Shown one piece after another: positions 2,834 through 43,900 of a stretch of DNA of 64,000 bases; the stretch's first letter is position 1, and each line of letters begins with the position of its first letter. The translations under genes and the position numbers were made by a program. The stretch is from assembly GCF_025149915.1 (NCBI RefSeq), contig NZ_CP102278.1, positions 790,001 to 854,000 on the forward strand, in the 5' to 3' direction. The notes beneath the pieces are model-generated. The model saw only the letters and a list, made by a program, of their open reading frames with translations, had not been told where the DNA came from and did not search any database. Origin of the DNA: Coprococcus eutactus. GTDB taxonomy: Bacteria > Bacillota > Clostridia > Lachnospirales > Lachnospiraceae.

Positions 2834-3016
2834 ATGGTATTCAATGTAGGTCAGGTTATAAAGATGAAAAAAGCTCATCCATGTGGAACTAACGCTTGGG
2901 AGATACTCCGGGTTGGAATGGACTTCAGACTTAGATGTACTGGATGTGATCACCAGGTGATGGTGTCCAGAAAACTGGTTGAAAAGAATTTTAAAGGTTT
3001 TATAGAAGAGAAGTAA
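2834..3016 (+). CDS. DUF951 family protein
   Basis: A 60-residue basic protein with a CxxC motif (CTGC) near residues 35-38, inside the segment RLRCTGCDHQVMVSR. Its length and overall pattern (a GQVIKMKKAHPCG start, then a treble-clef-like CxGC) match the small DUF951 family of Firmicutes. That family has no established function; a nucleic-acid or ribosome-related role is only a guess. The start is fixed by a strong ribosome binding site (GAGGAGGA) 11 bases upstream. It stands alone between the tRNA cluster and a long non-coding region. Confidence 0.85.
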   Translation: MVFNVGQVIKMKKAHPCGTNAWEILRVGMDFRLRCTGCDHQVMVSRKLVEKNFKGFIEEK

Positions 3017-3094
3017 AGTAAAATTTGTAAAAACGTATAAAATATTGGAGTAATAATAAAAAATACCTTCAAAAATAATGTTGATCAAGACAAG

Positions 3095-3301
3095 AAAAAA
3101 ATGTAATAAAAGAAACAGGATTATGACTAGGCGATCATAATCCTGTTTCTTTTATATAAGTTTTTTTGTGAGCTGGTATGGGAGAATATGTCTCATAAAC
3201 TAGCAATTACCCTCTGTTCATGCAATCCATAGGGAGGAGCGCAGCCGTTTGGCGACTGCGCCAATTAAGGGATTGGGGGTGTAGTCATTGCTGACTACAA
3301 A
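3095..3301 (-). ncRNA. Candidate small RNA, sibling copy 1
   Basis: The expected transcript is about 207 bases on the minus strand. It starts just after a promoter and ends in a 21-bp perfect hairpin (3106-3126 with 3135-3155) followed by a run of seven T. Between these, read on the minus strand, come a 7-bp tetraloop hairpin (GTAGTCA with TGACTAC), a 9-bp GC-rich hairpin with one mismatch (3239-3262), a C-rich unpaired stretch containing CTCCTCCC, and a hairpin around 3173-3204. A second copy at 3685-3904 keeps the order of these parts. Its terminator and GC-rich stems carry paired base changes that preserve pairing. C-rich loops are typical of Firmicutes antisense RNAs that target ribosome binding sites; that role is inferred. 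I do not recognise the family. Confidence 0.6.
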
Positions 3302-3307
3302 AGGGAG

Positions 3308-3335
3308 TAAATAACAAAAAATAGTAAATTGTCAA
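3308..3335 (-). promoter_or_regulatory. Promoter of small RNA copy 1
   Basis: On the minus strand, -35 TTGACA (3330-3335) and -10 TATTTA (3308-3313) are spaced 16 bases apart. The whole block from 3301 to about 3349 is essentially identical in the second copy. Farther upstream, an inverted repeat (GTAAGCAA at 3354-3361 and TTGCTTAC at 3392-3399) is also kept in both copies and may be an operator. Confidence 0.55.
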
Positions 3336-3684
3336 TGTTATAAAATTGTAGTTGTAAGCAACTGCTGTAATCTGTATTACTCATTCATCTCTTGCTTACA
3401 AACTGATAATATGACAAATGGAATAATATTGCAATAGCTTTGCAAGCTTTCAAGCCATAATACCATATAAGTTGGCGATTGTGACTGTTTTTGATCATAT
3501 ATTACTCAAATACACGCGAATAAATGATTATAAACTAATGCATATGCTCAAACAATCTAAAAAAATCAAATGGTAAGACAACAAGCGTGAGTTGCGCACA
3601 TTTTGGTTGCGCGCACATAGACAAAACAAGAAAGAAATAAATGAACAATATAAGAATAAGGGAAATAGCAAAAGAAATAATAAA

Positions 3685-3904
3685 AGAGAAAATAAAAGAA
3701 GCAGAATCGTTTTTAGGCTATCATGATTCTGCTTCTTTTATATATAAGTTTTTTGTGAGCTGATATGGGAAAGTATGTCTCATAAACTAGCTTTTACCCG
3801 CTTTTAATTCCCTGAACCATTATCGAAATCCTAAGGGAGGGGTACAGCCGCTCGGCGGCTGTACCAATTAAGGGATTGGGGTGTAGTCATTGCTGACTAC
3901 AAAA
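3685..3904 (-). ncRNA. Candidate small RNA, sibling copy 2
   Basis: This is the second copy of the element at 3095-3301, same strand and same layout. It has the GTAGTCA hairpin, a perfect 10-bp GC-rich stem (GGTACAGCCG with CGGCTGTACC, 3841-3865), the C-rich CCCCTCCC stretch, the shared TATGGGA/TCTCATA hairpin, and a 17-bp terminator stem (3692-3708 with 3725-3741) followed by a T-rich tail. The segment between the C-rich stretch and the TATGGGA hairpin differs most from copy 1, so the two RNAs could have different targets. Confidence 0.6.
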
Positions 3905-3910
3905 AGGGAG

Positions 3911-3938
3911 TAAATAACAAAAAATAGTAAATTGTCAA
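3911..3938 (-). promoter_or_regulatory. Promoter of small RNA copy 2
   Basis: Minus-strand -35 TTGACA (3933-3938) and -10 TATTTA (3911-3916) have the same 16-base spacing as copy 1. The upstream inverted repeat recurs at 3957-3964 and 3995-4002. Confidence 0.55.
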
Positions 3939-4083
3939 TGTTATAAAATTGTGGTCGTAAGCAATTGTCATAGTCTGTATGACTCGTTCATCTCTTGCTT
4001 ACAAGCTGATAATATGACAAAAATGTTTTTAGTGCAATAGCATTTGACTGTTTTCCACCATATTTACATATTTATAATAAATT

Positions 4084-4245
4084 TTGACTGTTTTTGATTG
4101 AAAATGCATATTGTAAGGTGATTGCATGAATATAAAAAATAAAATAAAAAGGTTATTAATACTGTTCAAACAACCGGTTTATATGATATAACTTTAATTA
4201 TGTGACGTGATAATACATTATCTTACAATGAATTATCACATACAA
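4084..4245 (+). promoter_or_regulatory. Possible promoter and leader hairpin of the NhaC-type gene
   Basis: TTGACT at 4084-4089 is followed after 17 bases by CATATT at 4107-4112, a modest promoter match. The motif GACTGTTTTTGAT also occurs near 3483. The leader contains an inverted repeat (TGATAAT at 4208-4214, ATTATCA at 4232-4238) with flanking pairing. No riboswitch class is recognised. Confidence 0.35.
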
Positions 4246-4282
4246 ATACTATACAAAAAGAAAAAGATCAGGGAGGATCAAG

Positions 4283-5953
4283 ATGAAGAGCAGCAAGAAA
4301 AATCTAATTGCTATCGCCGTGGTGATTTTGATTATCGCGGTTCTTGGAATTGTGTCCATATATGTGGATAAGATTCCATCACCATCGACCTATGCAACGT
4401 TCTGGGCGCTTGTACCATCGGTTGTGGCCATCACACTTGCTCTTATAACAAAAGAAGTTTACAGTTCACTTTTTATAGGAATTGTAATAGGCGGTGTGTT
4501 TGCATCAGGTTTTAGTTTTACAGGTAGTATATCAAACGTATTGCAGGATGGACTTATAGCTCAGCTTTCAGATTCCTACAATGTGGGTATACTTATATTC
4601 CTTGTCATCCTGGGAACGATAGTTGCCCTTATGAACAAGGCTGGAGGTTCAAAGGCATTTGGAGACTGGGCAGCGACTCATATCAAGACCAGACAGGGCG
4701 CGCAGCTCTGTACAGTACTGTTAGGTGTACTTATATTTATTGATGATTATTTCAATTGTCTCACGGTTGGTAGTGTCATGAAGCCAGTGACTGACAAACA
4801 CAGGATATCGAGAGCGAAGTTTGCGTATGTTATAGATGCCACAGCAGCACCTATATGTATTATTGCACCGGTGTCATCCTGGGCTGCGGCTGTCAGTGGA
4901 TTTGTAAAAGGTGAGGATGGATTTGGCCTGTTTATAAAGGCTATACCATATAACTATTACTCATTCCTAACTTTGGCTATGATGATTGCCATGATAGTTA
5001 TGAAGGTAGAGTTTGGCCCTATGGAAAAGCACGAACTGAATGCGCTGAAGGGTGATCTTCTCTCACTTGGAGATGGGAAGAAAACTGTCACAGCTGAGGA
5101 GACAGACGTTGTCAACAGTAATGGAAAGGTTATAGATCTTATAATACCGATCATCTGTCTTGTTGTATGCTGTGTTATAGGAATGATCTACACAGGTGGA
5201 TTTTTCAGTGGAACAGGATTTGTCGAGGCATTTTCGAACAGTGATGCTTCAGTTGGACTAGCAATAGGAAGTTTGTTTGGTCTGCTGATCACTATCTTAT
5301 TATATGTGATAAGAGGTGTACTTGACTTTAGTAAATGTATGGAGGCGATACCTGAGGGCTTCAAGGCTATGGTTCCTGCAATATTGATTCTGACATTTGC
5401 ATGGACTCTTAAGGGAACCACAGATATGATGGGCGCAAAGGATTTCGTGCAGAATGCTATGGAATCAGCGTCAGGAAGTCTGTTCAGCCTTTTGCCGGCG
5501 GTTATATTCATTGTAGGTTGCCTTATGGCATTCGCTACAGGAACATCATGGGGAACATTTGGAATACTCATTCCTATCGTGTGTGCTGTATTTGAGGGAA
5601 AAAACAACGAGCTTATGATAGTAGCTATCTCAGCATGTATGGCGGGAGCTGTATGCGGAGATCACTGCTCACCTATATCAGATACCACGATAATGGCATC
5701 AGCCGGAGCACAGTGCAACCATGTAAACCATGTATCAACACAGCTTCCATATGCCATAACGGCTGCAGCGCTGTCATTTATATCATACGCTATAGTCGGA
5801 CCGCTCACATACAGACTGCATGTTAAGTGGTTTGTGATGCTGCCAATATTTATAGCACTTATGGTTCTGTTTGTATTTATACTTAAGGTTATCAAACAGA
5901 AAAATCCGGAAAGTTATGCAAGTGCCGACACAAAGGTGGCTGACGCAGAATAA
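4283..5953 (+). CDS. Na+/H+ antiporter, NhaC family
   Basis: A 556-residue integral membrane protein with about a dozen hydrophobic segments, the first at residues 8-29. The interior contains NhaC-like signatures: FIDDYFNCLTVG near residues 152-163, and FATGTSWGTFGILIPI followed by GDHCSPISDTT in the second half. NhaC-type carriers exchange sodium for protons at the cytoplasmic membrane; some relatives carry organic acids or amino acids, so the substrate is not proven. A ribosome binding site (GGGAGG) sits 6 bases before the ATG. It appears monocistronic, with a candidate small RNA and a terminator downstream. Confidence 0.85.
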   Translation: MKSSKKNLIAIAVVILIIAVLGIVSIYVDKIPSPSTYATFWALVPSVVAITLALITKEVYSSLFIGIVIGGVFASGFSFTGSISNVLQDGLIAQLSDSYNVGILIFLVILGTIVALMNKAGGSKAFGDWAATHIKTRQGAQLCTVLLGVLIFIDDYFNCLTVGSVMKPVTDKHRISRAKFAYVIDATAAPICIIAPVSSWAAAVSGFVKGEDGFGLFIKAIPYNYYSFLTLAMMIAMIVMKVEFGPMEKHELNALKGDLLSLGDGKKTVTAEETDVVNSNGKVIDLIIPIICLVVCCVIGMIYTGGFFSGTGFVEAFSNSDASVGLAIGSLFGLLITILLYVIRGVLDFSKCMEAIPEGFKAMVPAILILTFAWTLKGTTDMMGAKDFVQNAMESASGSLFSLLPAVIFIVGCLMAFATGTSWGTFGILIPIVCAVFEGKNNELMIVAISACMAGAVCGDHCSPISDTTIMASAGAQCNHVNHVSTQLPYAITAAALSFISYAIVGPLTYRLHVKWFVMLPIFIALMVLFVFILKVIKQKNPESYASADTKVADAE

Positions 5954-6256: not shown

Positions 6257-7258
6257 ATGCAGGAAAACACAGAATTAAACAGGGAGATATCAAACGAGGA
6301 GATACAGAAAGCCGTAGGGATAATAAACAGGCTTTTCAGTTATTATAACAGCAAAGTTGTTGGACAGCCAGGACTGGGATATTCACTTTTGGTCGCAATG
6401 ATGACAAATGGACATGTTCTGCTGGAGTCAGTCCCGGGACTTGCTAAGACGACTGCAGCCCGCGTTATGACTGAGGCGGTGAATGGTTCTTTTTCAAGGA
6501 TACAGTGCACACCGGATCTTATACCAAGTGATATCATAGGAACTCAGATGTACAATATGGCGACAAATACATTTGAGGATAAGATCGGTCCAGTATATTC
6601 CAATTTTGTACTTCTCGATGAGATCAATAGATCAAGTGCAAAGACTCAGAGCGCTATGCTTGAGGCGATGCAGGAAAGGGAGGTAAGTATAGGGGGCAAG
6701 ACCTACAAGCTCCCGGAGGTGTTCGTTGTAATAGCGACACAGAATCCGATAGAATCCGAGGGTACATACGTGCTGTCTGAGGCTCAGCTTGATAGATTCC
6801 TTCTGAAGGAGACACTCACATATCCAAATCCGGCAGATGAGATTGAGATATTAAACAGAGTGGAGTCAGATGTATTTACAAATATCAGCGCGGTGGCATC
6901 CATGGAGGATGTGCTGTATCTTCAGAAGCTGTGCAGGAGAGTATATATAGATCCGGCTATAAAGAAATACATAGTCGATATTGTTCAGGCGTCGAGAAAT
7001 ACTGATAAATTTATGGATCCAAAGCTTGCCCAGTATGTTGCCATGGGAGCAAGTACAAGAGCGGCAATAGCATTTATGGAGACTGCAAAGGCGGTTGCAC
7101 TCATAAATGGCAGAAGATACTGCGTGCCTGACGATGTAAAGGCACTTAGATATTCGGTTCTCAGACACAGGATCATGCTGACATTTGCCGCTGTGGCAGA
7201 TGACATAAAGGTAGAACAGATAATAGATGCGATCGTAGGTGCTGTAAAGACTCCATAG
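6257..7258 (+). CDS. MoxR family AAA+ ATPase
   Basis: A 333-residue protein of the MoxR group of AAA+ chaperone-like ATPases. It shows a Walker A variant (SVPGLAKTT near residues 57-65), Walker B (LLDEINR near 122-128), the MoxR-typical QSAMLEAMQE, a sensor 1 ATQNP, and the ALRYSVLRHRI-type C-terminal lid. It opens a compact operon with a DUF58 protein, a small membrane protein, two von Willebrand A proteins and a TPR protein. In such operons MoxR is thought to help metal-dependent assembly or activation of the vWA partners at the membrane. A ribosome binding site (AAAGGAAAG) precedes the ATG. Confidence 0.92.
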   Translation: MQENTELNREISNEEIQKAVGIINRLFSYYNSKVVGQPGLGYSLLVAMMTNGHVLLESVPGLAKTTAARVMTEAVNGSFSRIQCTPDLIPSDIIGTQMYNMATNTFEDKIGPVYSNFVLLDEINRSSAKTQSAMLEAMQEREVSIGGKTYKLPEVFVVIATQNPIESEGTYVLSEAQLDRFLLKETLTYPNPADEIEILNRVESDVFTNISAVASMEDVLYLQKLCRRVYIDPAIKKYIVDIVQASRNTDKFMDPKLAQYVAMGASTRAAIAFMETAKAVALINGRRYCVPDDVKALRYSVLRHRIMLTFAAVADDIKVEQIIDAIVGAVKTP

Positions 7259-7318
7259 CCTACGGTGCTGACCGCAGATGGAAAATGGAACTTCTTCAGA
7301 GAGAGCAGGTAAAAATAT

Positions 7319-8215
7319 ATGAAGATGACATATGTCCCTCTCATACAGGGCAATATGAAAGGCATGAAGACGATCTACACGACAAGGGCGACATCAAGGA
7401 TAATTGACGGTTCATACAATTCCATATATAAGGGAAGAAGCATGAACTTTGACGAACTCAGAGAGTATGTTGCCGGGGACGATATAAAGGATGTGGATTG
7501 GAATGCGACTGCGCGCAGCCAGAAGGTCCTTGTTAGACAGTATATAGCGGAGAAAAAACATAATATTATGCTGGTACTCGACACTAACAGGAGAATGCTT
7601 GCAAACGCGAACGAGACGCAGGAAAAGAAAAACGTGGCGCTCATGGCGGCGGGAACTTTGGCATGTATGGTGAGTGCAAATGGAGATTATATAAGCGCAA
7701 CGTATTCAGACAAATCATCCATTCGGCATTTCCCATTTAAGACAGGGCTTTTCAATGTGGAAAATATTATGGCAGCATATGACAGAGATACATCCATGGA
7801 CAATGATTCAGATTTAAGTGCGGCACTCGAGTTCATATCAAAGAATATCAGAAGGAAGATGATCATGTTGATAGTTACAGATATGGATGGCATGAACAGA
7901 CTTTCTGGCAGGCTTTTAAAACAGCTGAAGGCAACGAATGACATACTTCTGATATGTGTGGATGATGTCGATATAAAGGGAAAACGTGTCTATGACATGG
8001 CGGCAAGACATTATCTGCCGGATTTTATTTCGGAGGATAAAAAGATTGCCCGCAATGAAAAAATACGCAGACAGAAGGTTGCAGAGGAATGCGCGGAGAA
8101 GATGAAGTCCGTTGGAATGACATATCAGATCATTGATTCGACAGAGGACATGGATGAAAAGATAGCTGAACTGTTAGGCAGGCACAGGCAGGAGAGCTCA
8201 GCTGTCTACAGATAA
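7319..8215 (+). CDS. DUF58 domain protein
   Basis: A 298-residue soluble protein with the DUF58 signature GDDIKDVDWNATAR near residues 52-65. This is followed by a vWA-like fold segment beginning HNIMLVLDTNRRM. Here the MIDAS-type DxSxS motif reads DTNRR, so metal binding may be lost. DUF58 proteins almost always sit beside MoxR ATPases and are presumed clients or adaptors. The gene is separated from moxR by 60 bases and followed within 24 bases by a small membrane protein gene, consistent with one transcript. Confidence 0.88.
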   Translation: MKMTYVPLIQGNMKGMKTIYTTRATSRIIDGSYNSIYKGRSMNFDELREYVAGDDIKDVDWNATARSQKVLVRQYIAEKKHNIMLVLDTNRRMLANANETQEKKNVALMAAGTLACMVSANGDYISATYSDKSSIRHFPFKTGLFNVENIMAAYDRDTSMDNDSDLSAALEFISKNIRRKMIMLIVTDMDGMNRLSGRLLKQLKATNDILLICVDDVDIKGKRVYDMAARHYLPDFISEDKKIARNEKIRRQKVAEECAEKMKSVGMTYQIIDSTEDMDEKIAELLGRHRQESSAVYR

Positions 8216-8239
8216 TCAGATGGATAAAGGAGAGTAAAT

Positions 8240-8713
8240 ATGGAGAGTTCAGTAAGCCTTCAGGAACCATTTTCATACGCGATATGGCCGATTGTGGCTG
8301 CTGGAGCAGTAGTGCTTGCAGTTCTGATATATTGGATCATCGTGTTTATCCGGAAAAGGTTTTCCAACAGGCCTAAAAAGCCTGTTGTGAGAGAATTGAG
8401 ACCGGAGGACAAGGACAGGATAAGAAGGAAGTATATAGCTGAGCTTGATGTCATAGGCATGGATTTTGAAAATGGCAGACTGGATATTCGTCATGCCTAC
8501 CAGAAGATGAGCATGTGTATAAGGAAGTTTGTGCATGAGATGACGGACATAAAGGTTCAGAACTATACACTCCGGGATATAGGAACTTTGGGTATTCCTG
8601 ATCTGTATTCTCTGGTGGCAGAATATTATGCGCCGGAATTTGCACGCAGATCAGAAGGTGATGTCAGGAACTCGTTGGCCAGAACAAGGAGTGCGATAGA
8701 GAGATGGATATAA
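8240..8713 (+). CDS. Small single-pass membrane protein of the MoxR/Bat operon
   Basis: A 157-residue protein with one membrane segment at residues 14-37, a basic stop-transfer stretch (RKRFSNRPKK), and a soluble helical domain. It resembles the short DUF4381-like proteins found between DUF58 and BatA genes, but I do not recognise a conserved motif with certainty. The start follows a good ribosome binding site (AAAGGAGAG). Its last 10 bases overlap the next gene, so translation is probably coupled. Confidence 0.7.
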   Translation: MESSVSLQEPFSYAIWPIVAAGAVVLAVLIYWIIVFIRKRFSNRPKKPVVRELRPEDKDRIRRKYIAELDVIGMDFENGRLDIRHAYQKMSMCIRKFVHEMTDIKVQNYTLRDIGTLGIPDLYSLVAEYYAPEFARRSEGDVRNSLARTRSAIERWI

Positions 8714-9750
8714 AATACATGTGGGTGATCTGGCTCGGAGCTGTGGTGGCACTGGGCATGGTCATCAGCCTGTTTATACGGAACAAGAAAAAAGGAAATA
8801 CATATGAGGGCGGCAAGAAGATTGCAGGACCTTTATACAGCAGAGATGAAGATTATTTCAAGAGAAAGATGACGGTGTACAGATCCTGCATGGCGGCTTT
8901 GCTGATATTGAGTATTGTTGCTGTCGTGTCCGCATTTGTGATGATGGCCAGACCGTACAGCAAAGAGCGTGTTCAGGATGAGCGTTATTGCAGAGATATC
9001 ATGTTGTGCATAGATATATCGACCTCAGTTGATTATCTGAATGAAAATCTTCTGGAGGAACTCAAGAAAACCGTGGATGAATTGCATGGAGAAAGATTTG
9101 GAATAGTCATATTTAACACAAGTCCGGTGTTATTGTCACCGCTCACGGATGACTATGAGTTCATAAAAGAACAGCTCGATATGATCGATAAAAGCTTGAA
9201 GGTCAGGAATTCAGAGGACGATTCGGATCTGTACAGCACAGATCTGAGTAGTATGTATGACTGGCTGTATTACGAAGGTTATATAACTTCGGGAACACTG
9301 GTTGGAAATGAGCAGAGGGGAAGTTCACTTATAGGTGACGGACTTGCGGCAGCAGCATGTGACTTTTCCGATAAGGATAAAACCAGAACAAAAATAATGA
9401 TATTTTCAACTGATAACGATATTCAGGGAAATCCGGTGGCTACGCTGGATGATGCAGCTTCGATATGCAAGAACAATGGTGTGACTGTATATGGAGTCGG
9501 AACTAAGGAGATGACAGACGAGAACAGGGAATCCATGAAAAAAGCAGTGGAGAGTACAGGTGGTCAGTTTTTCATGGAAGAGGAGTCGGGAACGTTTGAC
9601 CAGATAGTTACAGCCATAGAAAAAAGCAGTAAAAACCAGGTCGATGCAAAGATGATCGTACAGGAGAAGTCGAAGGTTGAATGGCCATTTGTGGCATTGC
9701 TGATAATATTTGTAATGATGACATGTATCGGCAGAGTCATAAAGCTGTGA
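8704..9750 (+). CDS. von Willebrand factor A membrane protein (BatA-like)
   Basis: A 348-residue protein with transmembrane segments near residues 5-22 and 57-83 and another at the extreme C-terminus (about 327-345). Between them lies a vWA domain. Its MIDAS motif is intact: DISTS at residues 104-108 and further metal-site residues downstream. This matches BatA-type proteins, which expose a vWA domain outside the membrane and interact with MoxR and TPR partners. The gene overlaps the upstream one by 10 bases. The function in Gram-positive anaerobes is unknown; aerotolerance is the historical Bat phenotype in Bacteroides. Confidence 0.82.
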   Translation: MDIKYMWVIWLGAVVALGMVISLFIRNKKKGNTYEGGKKIAGPLYSRDEDYFKRKMTVYRSCMAALLILSIVAVVSAFVMMARPYSKERVQDERYCRDIMLCIDISTSVDYLNENLLEELKKTVDELHGERFGIVIFNTSPVLLSPLTDDYEFIKEQLDMIDKSLKVRNSEDDSDLYSTDLSSMYDWLYYEGYITSGTLVGNEQRGSSLIGDGLAAAACDFSDKDKTRTKIMIFSTDNDIQGNPVATLDDAASICKNNGVTVYGVGTKEMTDENRESMKKAVESTGGQFFMEEESGTFDQIVTAIEKSSKNQVDAKMIVQEKSKVEWPFVALLIIFVMMTCIGRVIKL

Positions 9751-28914: not shown

Positions 28915-31900
28915 ATGAGAAAAGGAACTGGTAAACGAGTGATCGCATTCTTCATGGCGTTTATTATGGCATTGTCCGTAATATTCCAAAGTGATATGGC
29001 GATTGGAGGATTTGCAAAGGTGCTTGCTGCAGACACGGGAGGTATAGCCACTCCAACGGATGCGGACAGCGAAGCACAGCTTGCAGATACGGGGGCGATA
29101 GACCTCAATGCGGATGGATATTACGCATATCTTAAGAATTTGCCTAATGGTAAGATATATACGGGAAATGCGATTAAGATAGACAGTAATATCGGTGTAA
29201 AGAAAGTGGGAGATACATCGGGAACAACCACATTGTCATCGACACTTTATACGATAAGTTATGAGAACAATGTCAATGCGGGCACCGCGACAGCGATCAT
29301 AACGGGTAAGCCGGATATGAACTGTACAGGTACTCTTACAGTTACGTTTACGATCAGGCCTAAGACAATATCGACTGCGGGCTGGTTCTATGTCGGTGGA
29401 ACTAATACGGCAAATAAATATAGTACCAGCAAATCAAAGTATTACACATATCGGGCACAGGGTGTGGACCCAAAGATATATGTAAGATCATCTGCGAACG
29501 GTCCCTTCCTCACCGAAGGCGTGGATTATGAAGTTGAATATTGGAATGTGGATCAGGCAGCAGATATAGAGAAGGAACACATGGGTAATGGTCCATGTGC
29601 GGTTGTCACATCAACAAAGAACAGCAATTATGCTATAGGTGGCAGCAATGGATATTTTGATATCTTTTATGGAATAAATGCTGCGGATCTTGAAACACAG
29701 ACTACTATAAGTCTTGAAGGCGAGAGCTTTGTGTATACTGGCAAGCCGATAACACCTAAAGTTGAGGTTATAGATAATACCAATAACAAGAAACTCTATA
29801 GCTTAGAAGAGACCAACAAAGATGATTATGAATATAAAGTTGAATATTCAAACAATACAAATCCAGGTACAGCAACTGTTACAATAACGGGTCATCCAAA
29901 AAGATTTCAGGGATCAGTGACTAAGACATTCACGATCCTCAGCTCTGGAAGTAATGTTAAAAATATTGCAGATGCAGACGCTGTTGTAACGGATGAATTT
30001 ACATATGATGGCAAGGGCAAGACGCCGGAGCCGGTGGTTACATACAAGGGAACTACGCTCGTAAAAGATAGGGATTACAAGATTGCATATTATTCAGATA
30101 ATATAAATGCAACTACAGCTAAGAAGAAGGCAAGCGTTACTATTTCAGGTTTGAATTCATTTACAGGTTCAAAGACGATCCAGTTTGATATTGCACCGAA
30201 GTCGATAGACTCTCTTAACATAAGTATATCTGATGCTGTATACAATACTGCAAATAATATAGCTATGGCGGTTGTGCCAACAGTGAAGATCACGGATCCT
30301 GTTCTTGGAAAAACTCTGTCAACTGGTGATGGAGATTACTTCTTGGATTTTTCCGAATATAGAACAGAGAAGAATTACAATGTCGGTGAACACAGCTTTA
30401 AATTGACTGTGTATAACAACTACACAGGTTCAAAGACATGCACATTTAATACGGTGGCAACAAGCATTGCTCCTGCAGTGATCAAAGTGGAGCCGGTGGA
30501 GTATACTGGGGCAGAGGTTAAGCCTGTGCCATCTAAGGTAACGTTCAGCAATACAGCACTTGAGAATGGTGTCGATTACGAGATCACGGGTTATAAGAAT
30601 AATGTTGAGCTGGGCAGTTCAGCCATAATCACCATAACAGGTAAAGGCAATTTCAAGGGCACGGCTACAGGTACATTTACAATCAAGACAAGCAAGATCG
30701 GAATGACAGACGTTACAATTCCGGATATAGGAAATAAGGCATATACTGGTTCTCAGATAAAACCGGATATAACGCCTACATATGATGGCAGGAATTTGGT
30801 TGAGGGAACCGATTACACGGTCACATATGGTGACAACCTCTCACCAAGGGATACTGGTTCCGTAACATTTGTCGGAAAAGGCGACTATGCGGGAACTGTG
30901 ACCAAGACTTTCAAGATCGTTGCAAAGGATATAAGTGCGAATGATGTCATATTAACTAGAAATAAAGTCAATTATGAATATACAGGTTCACCGATTGATC
31001 CTGATATAACGGTTACATATAACGGAATCGTTCTGGAAAAGGGTGTAGATTACAAGGTGATGAATCTGTACACTGAACCAGGAACATATAATATGGTCAT
31101 CAGCGGAGCGGCAGGATCAACTCCGTATTTTACGGGTATGAGAATTTTCCAGATAACCATCACCGCACCAGCGGGAGAGATGGCTGATCTGGAGTACACC
31201 CCAATTCCTGATCAGTACTATGCCGGTAAAGAGATAACTCCAACACTTACAATCAAGAAAGGGGATTACACTCTTCAGCTTGATAAGGATTATGTTATAA
31301 AATCAATAACAGGAAATACAGAAGTAGGTGTTGCAACTGTTGAGATAGAAGGAACAGGATCTTACAGCGGTACAAAGAGTCTCGAGTTTAACATTGTTCC
31401 AAAGCCTATTGAGGACTGTACAATAACAGGAATAGAGGATACACAGTATGAGATGGGGGCAGCGATAGAACCTGCGGTTACAGTGAAGAATGGAACGGTA
31501 GAGCTTGTTCAGGGACGAGATTATACGTTAGCATTTAACAATAATATAGATGCCTCAGATAGCGCCGAGGTGGTAATCACGGCAAAGAGTTCAAACTACA
31601 CAGGTGATGCGACTAAGATTTTCAAGATTACACCAGTGTCAATTACAGCATCTGGAAATGGTGTCAGCATAACAAAGGCAGATGCTACACAGGAGTATAC
31701 AGGAACTGATATTGAACCAGAGATCGTGATAACAAGATATTACAATAGGAAGAATTACACTCTGGAACGGGGCAAGGATTATACTGTAGTTTATGAAAAT
31801 AACAGAGAGGTTACAGGATCTGGAGACAGAGCCTCGATCACAGTAACCGGTACAGGCAACTTCAGCGGACAGACAGTTATAAGATTTGAGATTTCAAAGA

Positions 31901-34900
31901 GAAACATAAGTTCATGTGCAGTGGAGTCGGTTCCGGATCAGCAGTGGACAGGCTCTGAGATAAAGCCGAATGTCGCAGTCTATAATGGCATAATAAAGTT
32001 GGAAAATGGCGGAGATTATGATGTAATCTACAGTGATAATATAGATGAAGGTGAAGCTTCATATACAGTTATCGGTAAGGGCGATCATTACACTGGAAGT
32101 GTTACAAAGTATTTCCGGATAACAAAGGAATTTATCAATATAGAAGACAATGACAAGATAGCCGTATCAAAGATTGAAAATCAGACATATAGGTTCGGAG
32201 CTGCGATAACCCCGAATTTTACAGTAACTTATGACGGAGAAAAACTGACTGATAAAGAGGACTATACATATAATTTTATAAATAATAAGAATGTGGGTAC
32301 AGCGACACTTACAGTAACAGGTGTTGGAAGATTCAAAGGAACGCTTACATATACGTTCAATATACTTCCATACGATATATCAGGGGATACACTTGTTATT
32401 GATCAGAATGTGTTTGAGTACACAGGTACTCCTGCAGAGCCACGGCCGGTGTCCATAAAGTCAGGAAATAATGTATTGGTAACAGATTTCACGGGCTTTA
32501 CTGTATCGTACAATGACAATACAGAGGCAGGTGCTGGAAGCGTTACAGTTACAGCAGGAACAACCGGGAACTTTATAGGCAGTCTCACACAGAGATTTAC
32601 TATAGAGCAGCAATCAATAAATTCAGCCAAAATAACTGTGAATGATGTGACATACACAGGCGAAGCACAGACACCCGATGTCACAGTTACGCTGGCAGAT
32701 GGAAAAGTTCTTTCGGCAGACGATTATACAGTCAAGTATAAGAATAACAAGGATATAGGAACGGCAACGGTAATTGTCACCGCTGTTGAAGGTGGAAATT
32801 ACAAAGGCTCAGTCGAGGGATCATTTAAGATTCAGGCAATAGATATTGCTGATGCCGTCATAACGGCTATAGAAGATCAGACCTACACAGGTTCTGCCAT
32901 ATGTCCTGATATTGAGGTTAAGTATGGAGACAATATCCTTGCTGAGGGTGAGGACTATGTTGTGGATTCTTATACCGACAATGAGAATGTGTCAACAGTT
33001 TCAAAGAAAGCCTGCGTCACTATAAAAGGCAAGGGACTTTATGTGGGAACATGCAGTGCCAAGTTCAGCATTGTGCCTGCATCAATAGAAAATGCAGTGG
33101 TATCCGGATATTCAAAGAATGTGGAATACACCGGTTCTGCAATAACATTTACATCTCTGACAGTTAAGGTTGGAGAAAAGGTCCTCACAAGTTCTGATTA
33201 CAAGGTGACATACAGCAACAATACTGATGTGACGACAGAGAAGACCCCGGCAAAGATTACAATAACAGCTGCGGGAAATTACACAGGTTCAATAGTTGTT
33301 CAATTTGCTATAACTGCCAGAAACCTGGAGAATTGTAATATAAGTGACATCGAGGGCCAGATATACACAGGGAAACAGGTTAAACCGGATGTTGAAGTCC
33401 GCGATGGAGCAAAGACTCTTGTAAAGGGTACAGATTATGATATAGAGTATTCAAACAATACTGAGGTGACGACAGAGGCTGGCGGTCTCGCTGTTGCAAA
33501 GATCATAGGTAAGGGCAACTATACAGGAGAAGTAAAGAAGACATTCTCAATTGCAAAAGAGATAATCGATATAAGCTCAGCAGTTGTGACGATCGCTGAC
33601 GGTGGTTCATTTATCTATAACTTTGGAGATGAGATAGAGCCAAAGGTGACTGTGAAGCTTGGTGACAAGGTACTTGATGCCGGTGCTTATACAGTCAGAT
33701 ACACAGATAATGTAAATGCTGGAAAGGCAACAATAACAGTCTCAGGAACCGGTGATTACAAGGGGCAGACAGGAACAACGTTTGTTATTGAGCAGTACGA
33801 CATAACATCAGCAGGCCTTGTACTTGAAAGTGACAGTTATACGTACAGCGGAAGTGAGATAAAGCCAGCGGTTAAGAGCATAACAGCAGGTAATAGGAAG
33901 ATCACTCCTGGTTCAGACTTTGATGTAACATACAGCAACAACATAAAGAAGGGAACAGGAACTGTATCCCTTACAGCCAGAGCAAATACAAACTACAAAG
34001 GAACCGCAAGTGCGAAATTCACAATTGGCGCTGCAGATATAACATCAGCCCGCGTGACGGTTCCGGATGCAGAGTATACAGGACTTCCGGTGAAGCCGGA
34101 TGTAACGGTGGTACTTGGAACAAAGAAACTTACAGAAGGTACAGATTATACAGTAGAGTTTGCAGACAACACGAGTGCTGGAACTGCGACAGTGACAGTT
34201 GCGGGTACCGGAAATTATGCGGGAACAGTCAATGCACAGTTCAAGATCACAGCAAAGTCTCTCAGCCTTGCAGTGGTGACAGCAAAGGATCAGACATACA
34301 CAGGAAAGGCTCTTAAGCCTGTAGTTGCAGTGACACTTGATGGCAAGACGATCGCAGATACAGAGTATGATGTGACCTATTCATCAAACATCAACAAGGG
34401 CACCGCTACAGTCACAGTCACAGGAAAGAACAACTATACAGGCAGCAAGGCCGGAACATTTAAGATACTTGCAAAGGATATCGAAGAGTGTGATGTTTCA
34501 GACGTTGCGGATGTTGTTTATAACGGTAAGGCACAGACCCCTGAGATAACAGTAAAGAATGGGGATGTGGAGTTAAAGAGCGGAGTTGATTATGAGGCTG
34601 TATATAGCAACAATATAGACGTATCAACAACCGCCCAAAAGGCCGAAATAACTATCACGGGTCATGGCAATTACACAGGGCAGAAGATAGTTAGCTTTAA
34701 TATAACCAAGGCTGCATTTGACGATGCGGTCATAACAGGAATACCTGAGAGCGAGGCATATACAGGAGACAGTATAATTCTGACAGGATATGAGGTTACT
34801 GTATCAGATGTTAAGCTCACAGAGAACAAGGATTACACAGTTTCATACAAGAACAATAAGGAAGTTGGAACTGCTACAGTCATATTTACTGGTGCAGGTA

Positions 34901-37900
34901 ATTATGAAGGCAGCAGAGAGATGACATTTGATATCGTACAGAGAAATGTTGCAGATTGTCAGATTTCGGCAATACCTGGACAGAAGTGGACAGGCAAGCC
35001 GGTTGCCCCAGCGGTAACAGTCAAAAATGGCAGTGTATCACTGGTAAACGGTACGGATTACACGGTTGAGTATGTGAACAACACAGATGTGACAGACAAG
35101 GCTGAGGCGATCATCACAGGACAGGGCAACTACACAGGTAGTATCACAGTGTACTTCTCAATCTCAAGAAGTATAGTGAGCATAAGCACTGCGACAATAT
35201 CAGCGATCCCGGCACAGACATATGCGATGGGTGCTGAGATAAAGCCGTCAGTGAACGTTGTATATGACGGAATGGAGCTTACTGAGGACAAGGATTACAC
35301 GGTTTCATATGCGAACAACATAGATGCCGGAACCGCTGAGGTTACAGTAACCGGAATTGGATATTATTCAGGATCAAAGACCGTAAGCTTTGTGATAGAT
35401 CCTCTCGATGTGAGCAAAGGAAGTGTAAAACTTGAGTCTGATTCATTTGTATACAATGGAAAGGCTCAGATACCGGTGGTGACCGGTATAGAGATCGGTT
35501 CAGATGTGCAGATAACAGACATGAGTTCATTTGATGTGGCATATGCGGACAATATCAATGTTGGAACAGCAAAGATTACACTCACAGCGAAGAACAATAC
35601 AAACTTTAAGGGTAGTGTGACAGCAAACTACAGAATAACAGAGGCTGACATTTCTACGGCTATTGCAGTGGCAGAGACTGCGGTATATCAGGGAACAGCA
35701 CTGAAACCTGCAGTTAAGGTTACACTTGGCGGTGTTAATCTGGTGGATGGAAAAGACTACGAGGTGGCATACAGCAGCAATGTAAATGTCGGAAAGGGCA
35801 AGGCAGTTATAACTGGTGCCGGCAATTACAAGGGTCAGCTCACAGTTTCATTCGACATTACAGCGAGATCACTGAAAGGTGCAGATGTGCAGATAGCTGA
35901 TCAGGTCTACACAGGAAAGGCACTCACGCCAAAGCCAGTTGTTACATTGGCAGATAAGACACTGGTTCAGGATGTTGACTATACAGTCACATATGAGAAG
36001 AATGTAAATGCCGGAACAGCAAATGTGATAATCGCAGGTACAGGCAATTACAAGGACAGTGTTAAGGAATCATTCAAGATAGCAGCGGCCGATATAGGAA
36101 AAGCTGAGGCATCAGCTATCGCTGATCAGGTGTATACAGGAAGCGAGATCACACCGGATGTTCAGGTAACCACTGCATCAGGAGAGGTGCTCGCAGTCGG
36201 AGTAGATTACGAGATTACTTATACGGGTAATGCTAATGTGACTACTGAGGACGCACCAGCCCAGGCGGTTATCGCAGGAAAGGGTAATTATACAGGAACA
36301 CTCAAGGTTGCATTTGCGATCGTTCCAAAGAACATTGCAGGTGTCTCAGTGAGCGGATACAGCGAGTCAGTTACATACACAGGCTCGGATGTGGAGTTTG
36401 GCAATATCATAGTGGCTGATGACAAGGAAGTGCTCACAGCTGGCGTTGACTACACCATAAGCTACACAGGCAACAAGTTAGTGACAACTGATGAGAAAAC
36501 ATATTTCACAGTGACTGGTAAGGGCAACTATACTGGTACAAAGGATGTTCACTTCACCATCACAAGAAAGAATATTAAGGATTGTGATGTACAGGCGATA
36601 GAGAGCCAGATATGGACAGGCAAGGAGATCAAGCCGGAAGTGACCATAAGAAATGGTTCGGCGCTCCTTGTAAGCGGAACAGATTATGATGTAGAGTACA
36701 GCAACAATATTAATGAAACAACGGATACGTCCAAGGCATTGGCAGTGATAACAGGTAATGGCAATTACACAGGATCGATAACAAGAGAATTCACGATATC
36801 AAGAATACTCTCAGATATATCGAAGGCAGAGGTATCAGCTATTCCGGCACAGACATATGACTTTGGAAGAGAGATAACACCAGATGTCACAGTTAAGTAT
36901 GATGGCAAGGTGCTCACGAAAAATGTTGACTATAAGCTTGATTACACAGACAACATAAATGTAGGAACAGCAACGGTCAGCATCGTTGGAATTGGTGGAT
37001 ATAATAAGTCAGTTTCAAAGACATTTGCTATAAAAGCTGCAGATATATCAAAGGGTGAGCTTATATTAAAGGGTACATCGTTTGTATATACAGGCGAAGC
37101 GATCAATCCATCAGTTACAAGGCTCATGCTTACAGTGGCAGAGGGTGCAGAGATCATAACAGATCTGGCTTCATTTGATGTGAAGTATACAGACAATGTA
37201 AATGCTGGAAAGGCAACAGTTTCACTCACCGCAAAGAGCGGAACGAACTTCACCGGAACAGCGACAGCGACGTTCCAGATAGAGAGAACATCACTTGCCG
37301 ATGCGGTTGTTGAGGCTTCATCACCAGAGTACACCGGAGATGCCGTCACACCGCACATCACAGTGAGGATCGGTGAGAAGGTTCTTGAGAACGGAACTGA
37401 CTATGAAATCACATATACAGATAACGTGAATGCGGGGGATAAGGCCGGATTTACCATTACAGGTAAGGGCAACTACGAAGGAGTCATAAACAGAACATTT
37501 GAGATCCAGCCAAAGAGCGTTGCAAATGGTAAATGTGAGATACCTTCACAGGTATATACAGGATCGGACGTTACACCGGGCGTAACAGTCAGCGTGGATG
37601 GAAAAGTCCTTGTCGCAGGCAGGGATTACATGGTGGTTTATTCAGATAACAGAGACGTGACGACGGCAGACCACAAGGCCAGTGCAGTCATAACAGCTAT
37701 GGGCAATTACACAGGAAAGCTTATAGTTCAGTTCGAGATCACGGCAAAGACCATACTTCCTGCGGATGTGTCTGATATTGAGGCACAGGAGTACACAGGA
37801 AGTGCCATAGAGCCAAAAGTTACAGTAAAGAACGGAACAACGATCCTTGTCGCTGGCCGCGATTATGATGTGGCATACAGTGACAATGTGGACAAGACAA

Positions 37901-40900
37901 AGTCAGCAAAGGCAGTCATCACAGGTAAGGGCAACTACAGAGGCGTTGTAGCAAAGACATTCGAGATATGCGCAACAAGTATAGCTTCAGCTGTAGTTAC
38001 AGGAATACCTGAGAACGCAGTTTACACAGGTGAGAGCATTACATTTGACGACATAAAGGTTCAGCTCGGCGGAAAGACCATGGTGTATGGTTCTGACTAC
38101 AGCATAAGCTATGAGCGAAATGTAAATGCGACAACAGATGAGTCAAAGGCATATGTGATCATCAAGGGTATGGACAATTATGGTGGACAGATAAGAGTTG
38201 CATTTGACATAACTCCTAAGAGTATCAGCAGTTGTAAAGTCGATGCCATAAATGGACAGATATATACAGGCAGTGAGGTGACTCCTGAGGTAACAGTCAG
38301 GGATGGCTCAGTTGTCCTTGAAAAGGATGTGGATTACACAGTTACATATGATGACAATATCGAGATAACGAAGTCAGCTAAGGCGGTCATCACAGGTAAA
38401 GGCAACTATGAAGGTGTAATCAGGACAGAGTTCTCCATATCAAAGGAGGTACTTGACATCTCAGCGGCCAAGATAGCAGGTATAGCTGACCAGTATTACA
38501 ACTTTGACGCAGAACTTACACCGGATGTGAAGGTAACTCTGAACGGAAAGACACTCGTTAAGGGCATTGATTACGACCTGACATATGCAAACAATGTAAA
38601 GCCTGGAAAGGCAACTGTGACAGTGAAGGGTATAGATCAGAACAAGGGCGAGGTAAGCGGTACGTTCAACATACTTCCGATAGATATCACCACTGCTGAT
38701 ATAACACTTGTTAAGAACTCATACGCATACACTGGAAATGCAGTAAATGCAGAGATAAGCAAGGTCACAGTTAAGAGAAATGGAGTTGCAAAGACTCTGA
38801 CGGATCTCACAGGATTCACATATTCATGCAGTGATAACGTGAATGTGGGCAAGGCAGTTCTGACACTCTCAGCTGAGGATGGTATGGGATTTGCAGGTAG
38901 TGCGACAGTTAATTATACGATCACAGCCGCATCAATAGAGCAGGCAGTGATAAGCATTGACAGTGCAGTATACACAGGTGAGGCGATCATCCCAGTATGC
39001 AGAGTCACACTGGCAGGCAAGACTCTTATTCCTGGAACAGATTACACAATTGCAGCATCAAACAATATAAATGTGACAGATGAGGCAGTAGTAACAATAA
39101 CAGGAAAGGGCAATTATTCAGGAAAAGCTGATACATATTTCAGCATAACACCAAAGAGAATATCGAGTGCAGAACTCACAGTGGCAGATGCGGAGTATAC
39201 AGGAGCTCCACTTGAGCCGGCAGTTACAGTGATCCTCGATGGAAAGACGCTCAAGGCCGGAACAGATTACACTGCTGATTACAGTGACAATGTAAATGTC
39301 ACGACCGGAAGCGCTAAGGCTTTAGTGACAGTTACAGGTAATGGCAACTATACAGGAACTGTGGATGCCGAGTTTGCCATAACACCTATGGATATATCGA
39401 AGCTGAGTATCGAAGACATACCGGCTCAGGTATATGCAGGACGGGCGGTAAGACCTGAGGTCACGATCAGAAATGGAGACGTGGTACTCACGGCGGGAGC
39501 TGATTACTCAGTTGAGTATCAGGACAATGAGGCAGTCACAAAGACAGCCAAGGCTGTTATTACAGGAAAAGGTAATTACAAGGGTTCTGTAACAAAGACA
39601 TTTATCATCACTGCGCTCAGCGTTGAGGATGCAGAGATATCAGGAATCGCAGATACTGTTGTATACAGCGGAGAGGACATAGAGTTCTCAGGAATAAAGG
39701 TAACTGTGAATGGAATACAGCTTGCAAATGGCACAGATTACACAGTTGCATACAAGAACAATCACGATGTGACCACCGATGAGCTCGCGAGTGTTATCAT
39801 CACAGGTAAGGGCAATTACGGCGGTGAGGTAAGCAGAACATTTACAATCACAGCTAAAAACATCGTGAGATGCAGCATCGATCCTATCGGAGGTCAGACA
39901 TACACAGGCTCACCTGTTACACCTGAGATCGTTGTGAGAGATGGTGCGATAGTTCTTGAGAAAGACAAGGATTACACGGTAGAGTACAGCAACAATACAG
40001 ATGTCACGGAAAATGCTAGCGTAACAGTTACAGGTAAGGACAATTATAAGGGAACAATAAGCACAGTATTCACGATCGCGAGGGAGATCATAGATATCTC
40101 AAAGGCTCAGATAAGCAAGCCGGACGATGACTACTATGATTTTGGAAATCCTATAAAGCCTGATGTCACACTTACATATAAGGGCAAGCAGCTTACAAAG
40201 GATGTAGATTATGAACTTGTGTACATAGGCAATACAAAAGAGGGTACGGCAACTATCCAGGCAAATGGAATCAATACCAACACAGGATCAGTAAGCACTA
40301 CATTTGAGATTCTTCCTATAGATATATCAGATGCAGTTGTGACACTTGAGAATGAGGAGTATGAGTACACTGGCGGGGAGATAAAGCCTGAGGTCAGAAT
40401 GGTCATGGTAAACAGATCAGGAAAGTCCGAGGCGGTCACATCCCTCGAAGGCTTTGAAGTGACATATGACAGCAACATCAATGTTGGAACTGCAAATGTC
40501 ACAGTGGCTGCAGTAAATGGAAGTGGTTTCACAGGAAAAACAGTCAGAACATTTGAGATAACAAAGGTGGATATGGCGGACGCTGTTGTTGAGATAGATG
40601 GCAGCTACGAATATACAGGCAGTGCGATAGCGCCAAAGTACACAGTTATTCTTGATGGAAAGACGCTTAAAGAGGGAACGGATTACACCGCGGTATGCAG
40701 CAACAATGTAAATGTCGGAAAACGTGCAATGGTTACAGTGACAGGCACAGGTAACTATACAGGAACGACTATCGGATACTTTGAGATCACAGCGAAGAAT
40801 ATAAGCGGAGCTGATGTCGCAGCGGCTGATGCTGAGTTCACCGGAATGCCGGTAACACCAGCGATAACAGTTACAGTTGACGGAGAGATACTCAATGCGG

Positions 40901-43900
40901 ATATCGACTACACGATATCTTATAACAACAATATCAACGCAACCACAGACAAGACAAAGGCTGCGGTTGTCATAAAGGGAACAGGTAATTATACAGGAAC
41001 TGTTACATGTACATTTGACATAGCTCCAAAGGATATATCAGGTGCTGTCATAAGTGATATAGAGGTTCAGAACTATACAGGAAAAGAGGTTACACCTGAG
41101 TTTTCTGTAAATCTTGACGGTAAGGTGCTTGCAGCAGGAACAGATTACGCTGTCTCATACGAGAACAACATAGCCGCTTCTGATGATGCGGTGGCTATCG
41201 TAACAGGAAGAGGTAACTACACAGGAAGTATTTCAAAGAAGTTTGCTATACAGAATGTGGACATTACAGACGCAGCTGTGACTGGAATAGAGGAAAGTGT
41301 TGTCTACACAGGAAAGGAGATAACATTTGGCGATATCATGGTTACAGTATCCGGAAGAACACTTTCGGAGGACGAGGATTACATAGTAAGCTATGAGAAC
41401 AACAAGAATGTAACAACATCTGCTAAGGTAGTCATAACCGGTACAGGAAACTACAGCGGCGTAATAACAAAGGCATTTGCTATCACACCTAAGAATATTG
41501 CTAAGTGCAGTGTCGATGCGGTCAGTGGTCAGATATACACAGCAAAGGCTATCACGCCGGAGGTGACAGTGAGAGATGGTTCATCAGTACTTGCGCTGAG
41601 CCAGGATTATACAGTCTCCTACAGCAATAATGTGGAGGTTACCACAGCAGACAGTATGGCGGTCATAACAGTCACTGGAAAGGGCAACTACACAGGAAAG
41701 ACAACAGTGACATTTGCCATATCAAAGAAGCTTACAGATATATCCAAGGCAGTTATATCAAAGATAGCTGATCAGCATTACAACTTTGGTCAGCCGCTCA
41801 CACCGGATGCCACAGTAACACTGAACGGTAAAGAACTTGTAAATGGCACAGATTACGCCCTTGTATATGTGGACAATACGGACGAGGGTACAGCGACAGT
41901 CACGGCAAAGGGAATCAATTCAAATACCGGTTCTGTGACCGCTAAGTTTAATATCAAACCTATAGACATAAGCGACGGAGTCATAGCACTCGATGCCGCT
42001 ACATACCTCTACACAGGTACAGCAGTCAAGCCGGAGATCATCTCATTTACAGTGAAGAGACTTGGCAAGACAGTGACGGTTACTGATTTCGATAACCTGG
42101 ATATAACATATTCATCCAACTCTGATGTTGGAACAGGAAAGATAACTATCACAGCACTTGAAGGAGAGGGCTTCACAGGAAGCGTGAGCAAGACATTTGC
42201 GATAGTCGGAGCTTCAGTGGAGAATGCAGTGGTCAGAGTTGAAAATGGAGTTTATACTGGAGAAGAGGTGGAGCCATCATATGTTGTCACACTTGGTGGA
42301 AGAACACTCGTAAGTGGAAAGGACTTCAGGGCAGACTTCAGCAACAATGTAAATGCAACTGACAGTGCGGTCTTGACTATAACAGGAATCAACAACTATA
42401 GCGGAACAAAGTCAGTCAGATTTACGATCAGTCCAAGAAGGATCACAGATGCCGACATAACGGTGGCTGCAGCAAGATACACAGGACAGAGTCTGACACC
42501 GGCTCTCACAGTTACAATCGGTGGAATGACACTTGTTCAGGATGTTGATTTCACGGCAGAGTATATTGACAATGTAAATGTGACAGATGATGAGACAAAA
42601 GCATCTGTAAAGGTAACAGGAATCGGTAACTACACAGGAAATGCAAGTGAGGAATTTGAGATATCACCTAGAGATATTTCTCTTGCAAGCGTTGCGGATA
42701 TAGACAGTCAGGCATATACAGGCAATCCGGTTATGCCGGAACCAGTTGTAACAGACGGTACAACAGTTCTGAAAGCTGGCAGAGATTATGTGGTAAGTTA
42801 CAGGAACAACACAAATGTGACAGCTGAGGCTGGGGTGATCATTACAGGTAAGGGCAATTACACCGGATCTGTTGTAAAGATATTTTCTATTGCCGGAGCA
42901 GACATAAAGGATGCAGTGGTCACAGGAGTCAAGAGCAGTGTGACGTATACTGGAAGAGAGATAACATTTACAGGTCTTAAGGTGACATACGGAGATGAAG
43001 TGCTTGTAGTAGGCCAAGATTATACTGTTACATACAGCAATAACAGAAATGTCACGGATAAGGCGGAGGTCAGAATCGCAGGTAATGGCAACTATACCGG
43101 AACCGTGATAAAGACATTTGCAATAAAACAGAAGAATATAGCAGATAATGACTGCCATGTAAGTGAAATCGGTGGACAGATATATACAGGCAAGGAGATA
43201 GAGCCAGAGGTAGTAGTTACACATGGAGATATCACCCTTGTTGAGGATGTTGACTATGAGATAACATACAGCAACAATATAGAAGCGTCTGCTAAGAATT
43301 CTCCTGCGAAGGCGGTTATAACAGGAAAGGGAAGCTATACCGGAACTGTTTCAAGAGAATTTACAATAACAAAGGAACCTGTAAACATAAGCGGTGCGAA
43401 GATCAACGCGATAGCCGATCAGGAGTTTGCAAAGACATTCATCACACCGGCTGTTGATGTGACATATGCCGGCAAAGCGCTTGTTGAGGGAACGGATTAC
43501 AAGGTATCGTATTCAAACAACTACAACGTTGGAACAGCAACCGTATACATTACAGGATATGGAAATTATGTAGGTTCAAAGAAGATAACATTTAACATTA
43601 CAAAGAGAGACATTACAGGTTATACAGCGGTTCTGGCACAGACAGATATGACATACACAGGCAAGACAATAACGCCGGATGTTGTATCGATCAGCAGTGC
43701 GGATGGTTCATTTATCATCAACGACGAGGAGCTTGATACATTTGTTGTAAAATATGCCGGAAATGTAAATGCAGGAACTGCAAAGGTAACTGCAACAGCT
43801 GGAAGCAATTCAAATTATACGGGAAGTGTAACTGCCCAGTTCAAGATCGCTCCAGCTCAGTTAAATGGTGCAGTTGCCACAGCGGAGACAACGGAATACA

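Follow-up and report, generated by a model that had tools for sequence, protein, structure and literature searches.

A tandem minus-strand duplication in Coprococcus eutactus that most likely encodes orphan sibling small RNAs

As far as one account goes (PMC4211561), sibling small RNAs (sRNAs) are redundant or non-redundant, some of them lie in tandem, and tandem siblings have been described chiefly from model bacteria and pathogens. The window analyzed here, a stretch of 64,000 nt from a one-contig genome (G000:C1:790001-854000), carries a minus-strand unit twice between the DUF951 gene side and a Na+/H+ antiporter-family gene. Are these two units sRNA genes, and if so, do they belong to a known family? 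We conclude that the pair is a real duplication and most likely represents orphan sibling sRNA genes, a kind that is known with a member that is apparently new, which could nevertheless already be in print as an unnamed candidate. A diverged pair with compensated stems would offer a convenient case for how duplicated sRNAs split roles.

Two copies of one minus-strand unit

The pair is flanked on its left by the end of a 23S rRNA, six tRNAs and the DUF951 gene, and on its right by the antiporter-family gene. In their long forms, copy A would span 3100..3399 and copy B 3687..4002 (both minus strand, as are all features of the pair given below), with starts and ends placed by prediction; putative short forms start at about 3301-3298 and 3904-3901. 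A preliminary description of this region had reported two minus-strand copies with common hairpins, C-rich stretches and a terminal hairpin, and all of this was recovered at the positions it gave. The two copies align by blastn with 78.5% identity over 410 positions and are offset by 586-603 bp, depending on the part compared. A search of the genome itself at E 0.001 returned exactly these two copies and no third. Sibling sRNAs are recognized by at least two highly similar genes in one genome, which is what copies A and B represent at this similarity and copy number. A mobile repeat was rejected, as this search returned two copies only.

Synteny with related genomes breaks at 2834-4283. In this genome DUF951 is followed by the RNA pair and the antiporter gene; in the three of four other same-genus genomes that have DUF951, rpsF, ssb and rpsR (named by eye) come next without these RNAs, and the fourth yielded no DUF951 match.

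Hairpins, compensated pairs and coding capacity

Minimum-energy folds of both copies have two hairpins, H1 and H2, and a terminator hairpin in common. H1 (3280..3299 in A, 3882..3901 in B) consists of 8 bp closed by a GCAA loop and is identical between the copies in 20 of 20 bases and 8 of 8 pairs. The GC-rich H2 (3238..3262 and 3841..3865) comprises 10 bp. A third hairpin, short and weak (z = -2.2 and -1.0), lies at 3172..3204 and 3759..3791; in copy A it includes ATGAGACAT along with a TCTCCC segment. The terminator hairpin of copy A (3107..3154) was listed by a terminator scan in both directions, while that of copy B (3693..3740) was found by folding and is absent from the scan, as its loop is too long for the scan rules. 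Without the terminator, the body of either copy is more stable than all of 300 shuffles (z = -4.4 for A and -4.5 for B), and none of 300 shuffles matched either terminator hairpin. The long forms including the terminator reach z = -7.4 (A, 300 nt) and -7.3 (B, 316 nt). The ATAAAAGAAAC..(G)TTTCTTTTAT terminators (3095-3166; L004:1487-1551), which look like a common bidirectional style, recur elsewhere, in one genome of the same genus and in at least two more from the family (L067 and L078).

The preliminary description had based its case for selection on RNA structure on exchanges such as GCGC against GTAC in the GC-rich stem and AAACAGGATT against AAGCAGAATC in the terminator. These compensations are real. 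Copies A and B keep all 10 pairs of H2, of which 2 differ on both sides and 2 on one side. Among the 20 pairs of the terminator, 3 are changed on both sides and 3 near the tip are lost in copy B; in the third hairpin, 2 of 8 pairs are changed on one side to G-U. H2 and terminator together (30 pairs) thus hold 5 double-changed and 2 single-changed pairs that still pair, against 3 lost in B. When the same 15 substitutions were placed at random over these 30 pairs, a mean of 1.27 double-compensated pairs resulted and at least five arose with P ~0.001, a value that, like all pairing tests here, is flattered by the helices having been picked on the same sequences. The terminator alone gave P = 0.006 by double changes, 0.218 by broken pairs and 0.006 jointly; its lower 16 pairs, a subset chosen without the lost pairs, gave P = 0.0007. 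For H2 alone, double changes gave P = 0.084, broken pairs 0.100 and the two jointly (double changes and no broken pair) 0.032. A plain count of standard pairs returned P = 0.05 for both helices together, 0.10 for H2 and 0.22 for the whole terminator. The covariation signal lies mostly in the terminator, a part that would be expected to pair in any intrinsic terminator, and H2 alone is marginal. The compensated pairs support selection on RNA structure between the two copies, an argument drawn from two sequences of one genome because no homologue was found.

The same pairs bear on the strand. Read as minus-strand RNA, the two copies (38 pairs each, 76 in all) have 73 standard pairs, compared with 70 when read as plus; four G-U pairs favor minus, and one A-C at the tip of the copy B terminator would be G-U on plus. 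Body z values point the same way (-4.4/-4.5 on minus, -2.3/-3.9 on plus). The preference for the minus strand is only modest, and it makes a plus-strand RNA the less likely choice.

No minus-strand frame of at least 40 residues lies inside either RNA or between RNA and terminator, and the longest frame wholly inside has 29 residues. A rival reading takes the units for small-protein or type I toxin-like mRNAs, which would begin at the upstream start, encode peptides of 29 aa (A) and 24 aa (B) with hydrophobic ends across a 47-nt run that both copies share, and include a second short frame beginning with ATGAGACAT. Short frames do exist at 3384-3295 and 3971-3897, but the two peptides read the identical 47-nt run in different frames, so that no peptide is conserved, and by eye neither frame has a good ribosome-binding site. 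The ATGAGACAT frame fares no better: it has 20 residues in B and 14 in A, and 2 of the 3 changes in its shared part alter the residue before the frame shifts. We consider mRNAs of this sort extremely unlikely, and a type I toxin-antitoxin mRNA with a conserved hydrophobic peptide was rejected on account of the different frames. A riboswitch or leader was likewise rejected, as no same-strand gene precedes the terminator.

Candidate start sites and upstream elements

The shared 47-nt run (3303..3349 in A, 3906..3952 in B) holds TTGACA (3335-3330 in copy A) and TATTTA (3313-3308), which the preliminary description took for the promoter, with starts near 3301 and 3904. Both copies carry the block in identical form, but its -10 element is weak: TATTTA shares 3 of 6 bases with TATAAT and, ending in A, lies outside the rules of our promoter scan. 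We therefore revised the starts. Further upstream, copy A has a promoter-like site, P1 (3406..3434), which was listed by the scan and consists of TTGCAA (3434-3429), a 17-nt spacer and TATTAT (3411-3406). Its counterpart in copy B (4009..4037), read in the alignment, consists of TTGCAC (4037-4032), 17 nt and TATTAT (4014-4009) and is absent from the scan list, as its -35 matches at only 3 of 6 positions. Since the scan returned 11 promoter-like sites against 9.6 ± 3.1 in shuffles, a single listed site means little. The case for P1 is instead built, within this one sequence pair, on conserved hexamers (-35, 5 of 6; TATTAT, 6 of 6) with a partly diverged spacer (10 of 17); from -10 to +1, 12 of 13 positions agree.

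P1 would place the first base at G3399 and G4002, which in each copy is the first base of an inverted repeat, GTAAGCAA..TTGCTTAC (3354..3399 and 3957..4002). Its arms are identical in both copies, and a genome-wide search for the exact pattern returned these two places only. If P1 is real, the repeat belongs to the RNA and forms its 5' hairpin, giving a length of about 300-316 nt rather than about 200; as RNA, the region is only moderately above shuffles (z = -1.8 and -2.1). We lean towards the P1 start being the one in use. An alternative that is compatible with the other readings of the locus takes the 47-nt run as the promoter (P2) and the repeat as an operator-like DNA dyad, yielding RNAs of about 200 nt from ~3301 and ~3904. 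A perfect TTGACA, a TATTTA preceded by TG at a distance of 16 nt, and an inverted repeat confined genome-wide to these two places, as expected of a dedicated operator or hairpin, all speak for it. It is weakened by the 3 of 6 matches of TATTTA, by repeat arms that lie 30 bases apart, which is long for one operator, and by a spacer identical at 16 of 16 positions, whereas P1 shows conserved hexamers around a diverged spacer (a contrast that comes from a single sequence pair). Initiation from P2 thus appears possible but doubtful to us, and each copy may possibly have two promoters.

Beyond P1, the copies are identical in only 45 of 81 columns. AAAACAGTCA is present once upstream of copy A (3482..3491) and twice upstream of copy B (4045..4094, 40 bp start to start). 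Three of the four exact occurrences in the window lie just upstream of the RNA copies, and the genome has a single close pair of AACAGTCA. Tolerating one mismatch brings the number in the window to 9, which is no higher than chance allows (mean 5.9, with 9 reached in 13 of 100 shuffles), and AAAACAGTCA as a possible regulator site is no more than a lead.

C-rich segments, relatives and known families

C-rich runs are kept in both copies. Copy A carries CCCCCAATCCC at 3269..3279 and TCCTCCC at 3232..3238; the first base of the latter closes H2 and its CCC is predicted to be unpaired with a probability of 0.98. G is mostly paired in the predicted folds (mean unpaired 0.20 in A and 0.23 in B), compared with 0.49 and 0.48 for C. 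Exposure is uneven: UCCC-type motifs are present in both copies, and the mean unpaired probabilities of 11 C-runs range from 0.12 to 0.98 (A: 0.19, 0.74, 0.38, 0.98 and 0.67; B: 0.27, 0.96, 0.83, 0.49, 0.12 and 0.42). The lowest value belongs to the CTCCC segment of copy B, against 0.98 in A. In B, this segment is paired in a predicted stem in which a 16-nt stretch that only this copy has (3811..3826) takes part.

Complementarity of these segments to gene start regions is suggestive at best. At a threshold of at least 7 paired bases, two C-rich segments matched 3 of 35 and 2 of 35 start regions, with 0 of 35 controls each, and the other two showed no excess (1 vs 1 and 0 vs 0). Used as control sequences, H1 scored 1 vs 0 and an AU-rich run 0 vs 0. 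The test was small, with gene starts taken mechanically as the first start codon and 35 of 38 open frames used; the three left out comprise two with starts before 4000 and one at 50057. Genome-wide, the complement of one C-rich segment occurs at 12 further places with 2-3 mismatches in 16 (14 including both copies), against 5 for a reversed control pattern.

To our searches, the pair stands alone. BLAST with copy A against five genomes of the genus, its own included, matched one other, in the terminator only. With 3168-3420 as the query against 397 family genomes including its own, and with only two candidates per genome scored, BLAST returned 15 places in 14 others, at no more than 42.8 bits and covering 20-43 of the 253 query bases each; no second RNA element was seen at the six places inspected. 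An exact 18-mer was present at five loci in the genome_contigs and two in the viral_contigs collection, with no neighboring element at the five of these seven that were inspected. In viral_contigs, a 19-mer of H1 matched once, where a contig begins, and the rest of the RNA does not follow; a 29-base promoter run had no match there. The phage and plasmid collections gave no match.

A full covariance model (R1) matched 23 other genomes among the 397 at E up to 0.05. None of the 15 inspected joins H1, C-rich stretch and H2, and in the match table the remaining 8 begin at model position 120 or later, mostly in the terminator. A terminator-free model (R2) recovered only the genome's own two copies among the 397. 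Its single other match, among 392 genomes of the order, was discarded as chance, as it coincides in part with the start of a 275-residue frame resembling, by eye, an ABC permease. The two genome sets share members, sample only part of larger groups and were searched with stricter filters, so that weak homologues may be lost; close relatives of this genome may also be excluded from some collection searches. Among 60 genomes, 24 others carry relatives of the antiporter gene, at 26 places in total, and none of these loci has an RNA copy within ~1.5 kb on each side (BLAST, E 0.01). The relatives compared are distant, with 93.8% identity of the 23S to that of G001 over 1613 aligned bases, and a fast-evolving RNA could therefore be missed.

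The preliminary description knew of no named family that fits, and this holds for Rfam 15, whose 8 matches at curated scores over the whole window are all rRNA or tRNA, with none in the region of the RNA pair. Its proposed covariance-model check thus confirmed that no Rfam family applies, but with no homologue in the genomes searched the cross-genome covariation test stayed empty. A relaxed search of 3000-4200 at E up to 5 listed 22 matches, 12 of them to microRNA families, and none reaches 55% of its curated score. Rfam includes an LhrC family; at curated scores, no covariance model of LhrC, csRNA or other Rfam 15 families matched the region.

Known systems provide analogies. The C-rich segments are similar to UCCC motifs of low-GC bacteria described, within the scope of one source (PMC4132741), for LhrC, RNAIII, RsaE, SprD and FsrA. 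That source portrays LhrC1-5 of Listeria monocytogenes as likewise paralogous, with UCCC-type segments in loops and single strands; LhrC, a multicopy sRNA with CU-rich motifs, has five copies, compared with two here, and the present pair lacks an Rfam match. The CiaR-controlled csRNAs of Streptococcus are also siblings, some in tandem and one carrying an insertion longer than 50 nt according to PMC4211561, but they belong to a different organism group and, again, the present pair matches no Rfam model. Our best reading by analogy is that the pair may work like LhrC or the csRNAs without being a member of either.

On this model, each sRNA would be transcribed leftward from its own promoter and ended by its own intrinsic terminator, and would fold into H1 and H2 with C-rich stretches between them. 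Its UCCC-type segments could then pair in trans with G-rich ribosome-binding sites of mRNAs. The extra 16 nt of copy B would hide a C-rich segment that is exposed in copy A, and the siblings may hence not be fully redundant. Compensated stems, stable folds, the lack of a long frame, terminator-like hairpins and C-rich runs kept in both copies underlie the sRNA reading; in its complete form, namely tandem paralogous, free-standing, leftward genes with their own promoter and terminator that probably act in trans by pairing C-rich segments with ribosome-binding sites, we hold it with about even confidence.

Three other explanations were considered. The longest identical stretches, the 47-nt run (47 of 47) and H1 (20 of 20), would suit structured siblings that bind a protein for titration or as a scaffold instead of pairing with ribosome-binding sites, the U-rich run and the GCAA-capped hairpin being the binding sites; the sequence points to no partner, however, and identity over 47 nt could be equally explained by a promoter or by conversion between the copies, which leaves this option unlikely. 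A bolder version, which we rate as quite unlikely, sees a new class of ~300-nt paired RNAs of one lineage that start with a 5' hairpin, carry the invariant U-rich run and act through a protein partner or a C-rich switch between closed (CCC:GGG) and open states, with the siblings tuned differently. Finally, the locus might encode no functional RNA and be duplicated intergenic DNA in decay that carries bidirectional terminators. The failure to find a homologue elsewhere, similar terminators in other family genomes and a non-terminator stem that is marginal alone speak for decay. Against it stand the compensated pairs, together with an identical H1 and 47-nt run beside the diverged flank, and we regard decay as very improbable. 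Sibling sRNA genes thus remain our preferred interpretation.

6S RNA (RF00013), also structured with ~187 model positions, has two copies in some bacteria, as PMC4211561 states for the cases it covers. Its identity with the pair was rejected, since no RF00013 match lies in the region. The shape differs as well: 6S RNA forms one long rod, unlike the hairpins and single strands of the present pair. Outside the window, the sole 6S-like match in the genome is a candidate at L123:1501-1684 (G000:C1:944430-944613), with 45.1 bits against a cut-off of 46.4 (1.3 under).

Elsewhere in the window, a single open frame of 5727 residues occupies 28915-46098 on the plus strand. Pfam gave no match at E 0.001 over the first 2000 residues, and the frame seems repetitive, since one same-genus stretch matches many places in it. 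Genes for a MoxR-type AAA protein, a DUF58 protein and a VWA protein lie in a row at 6257-9750 (plus strand), with one further frame between the last two.
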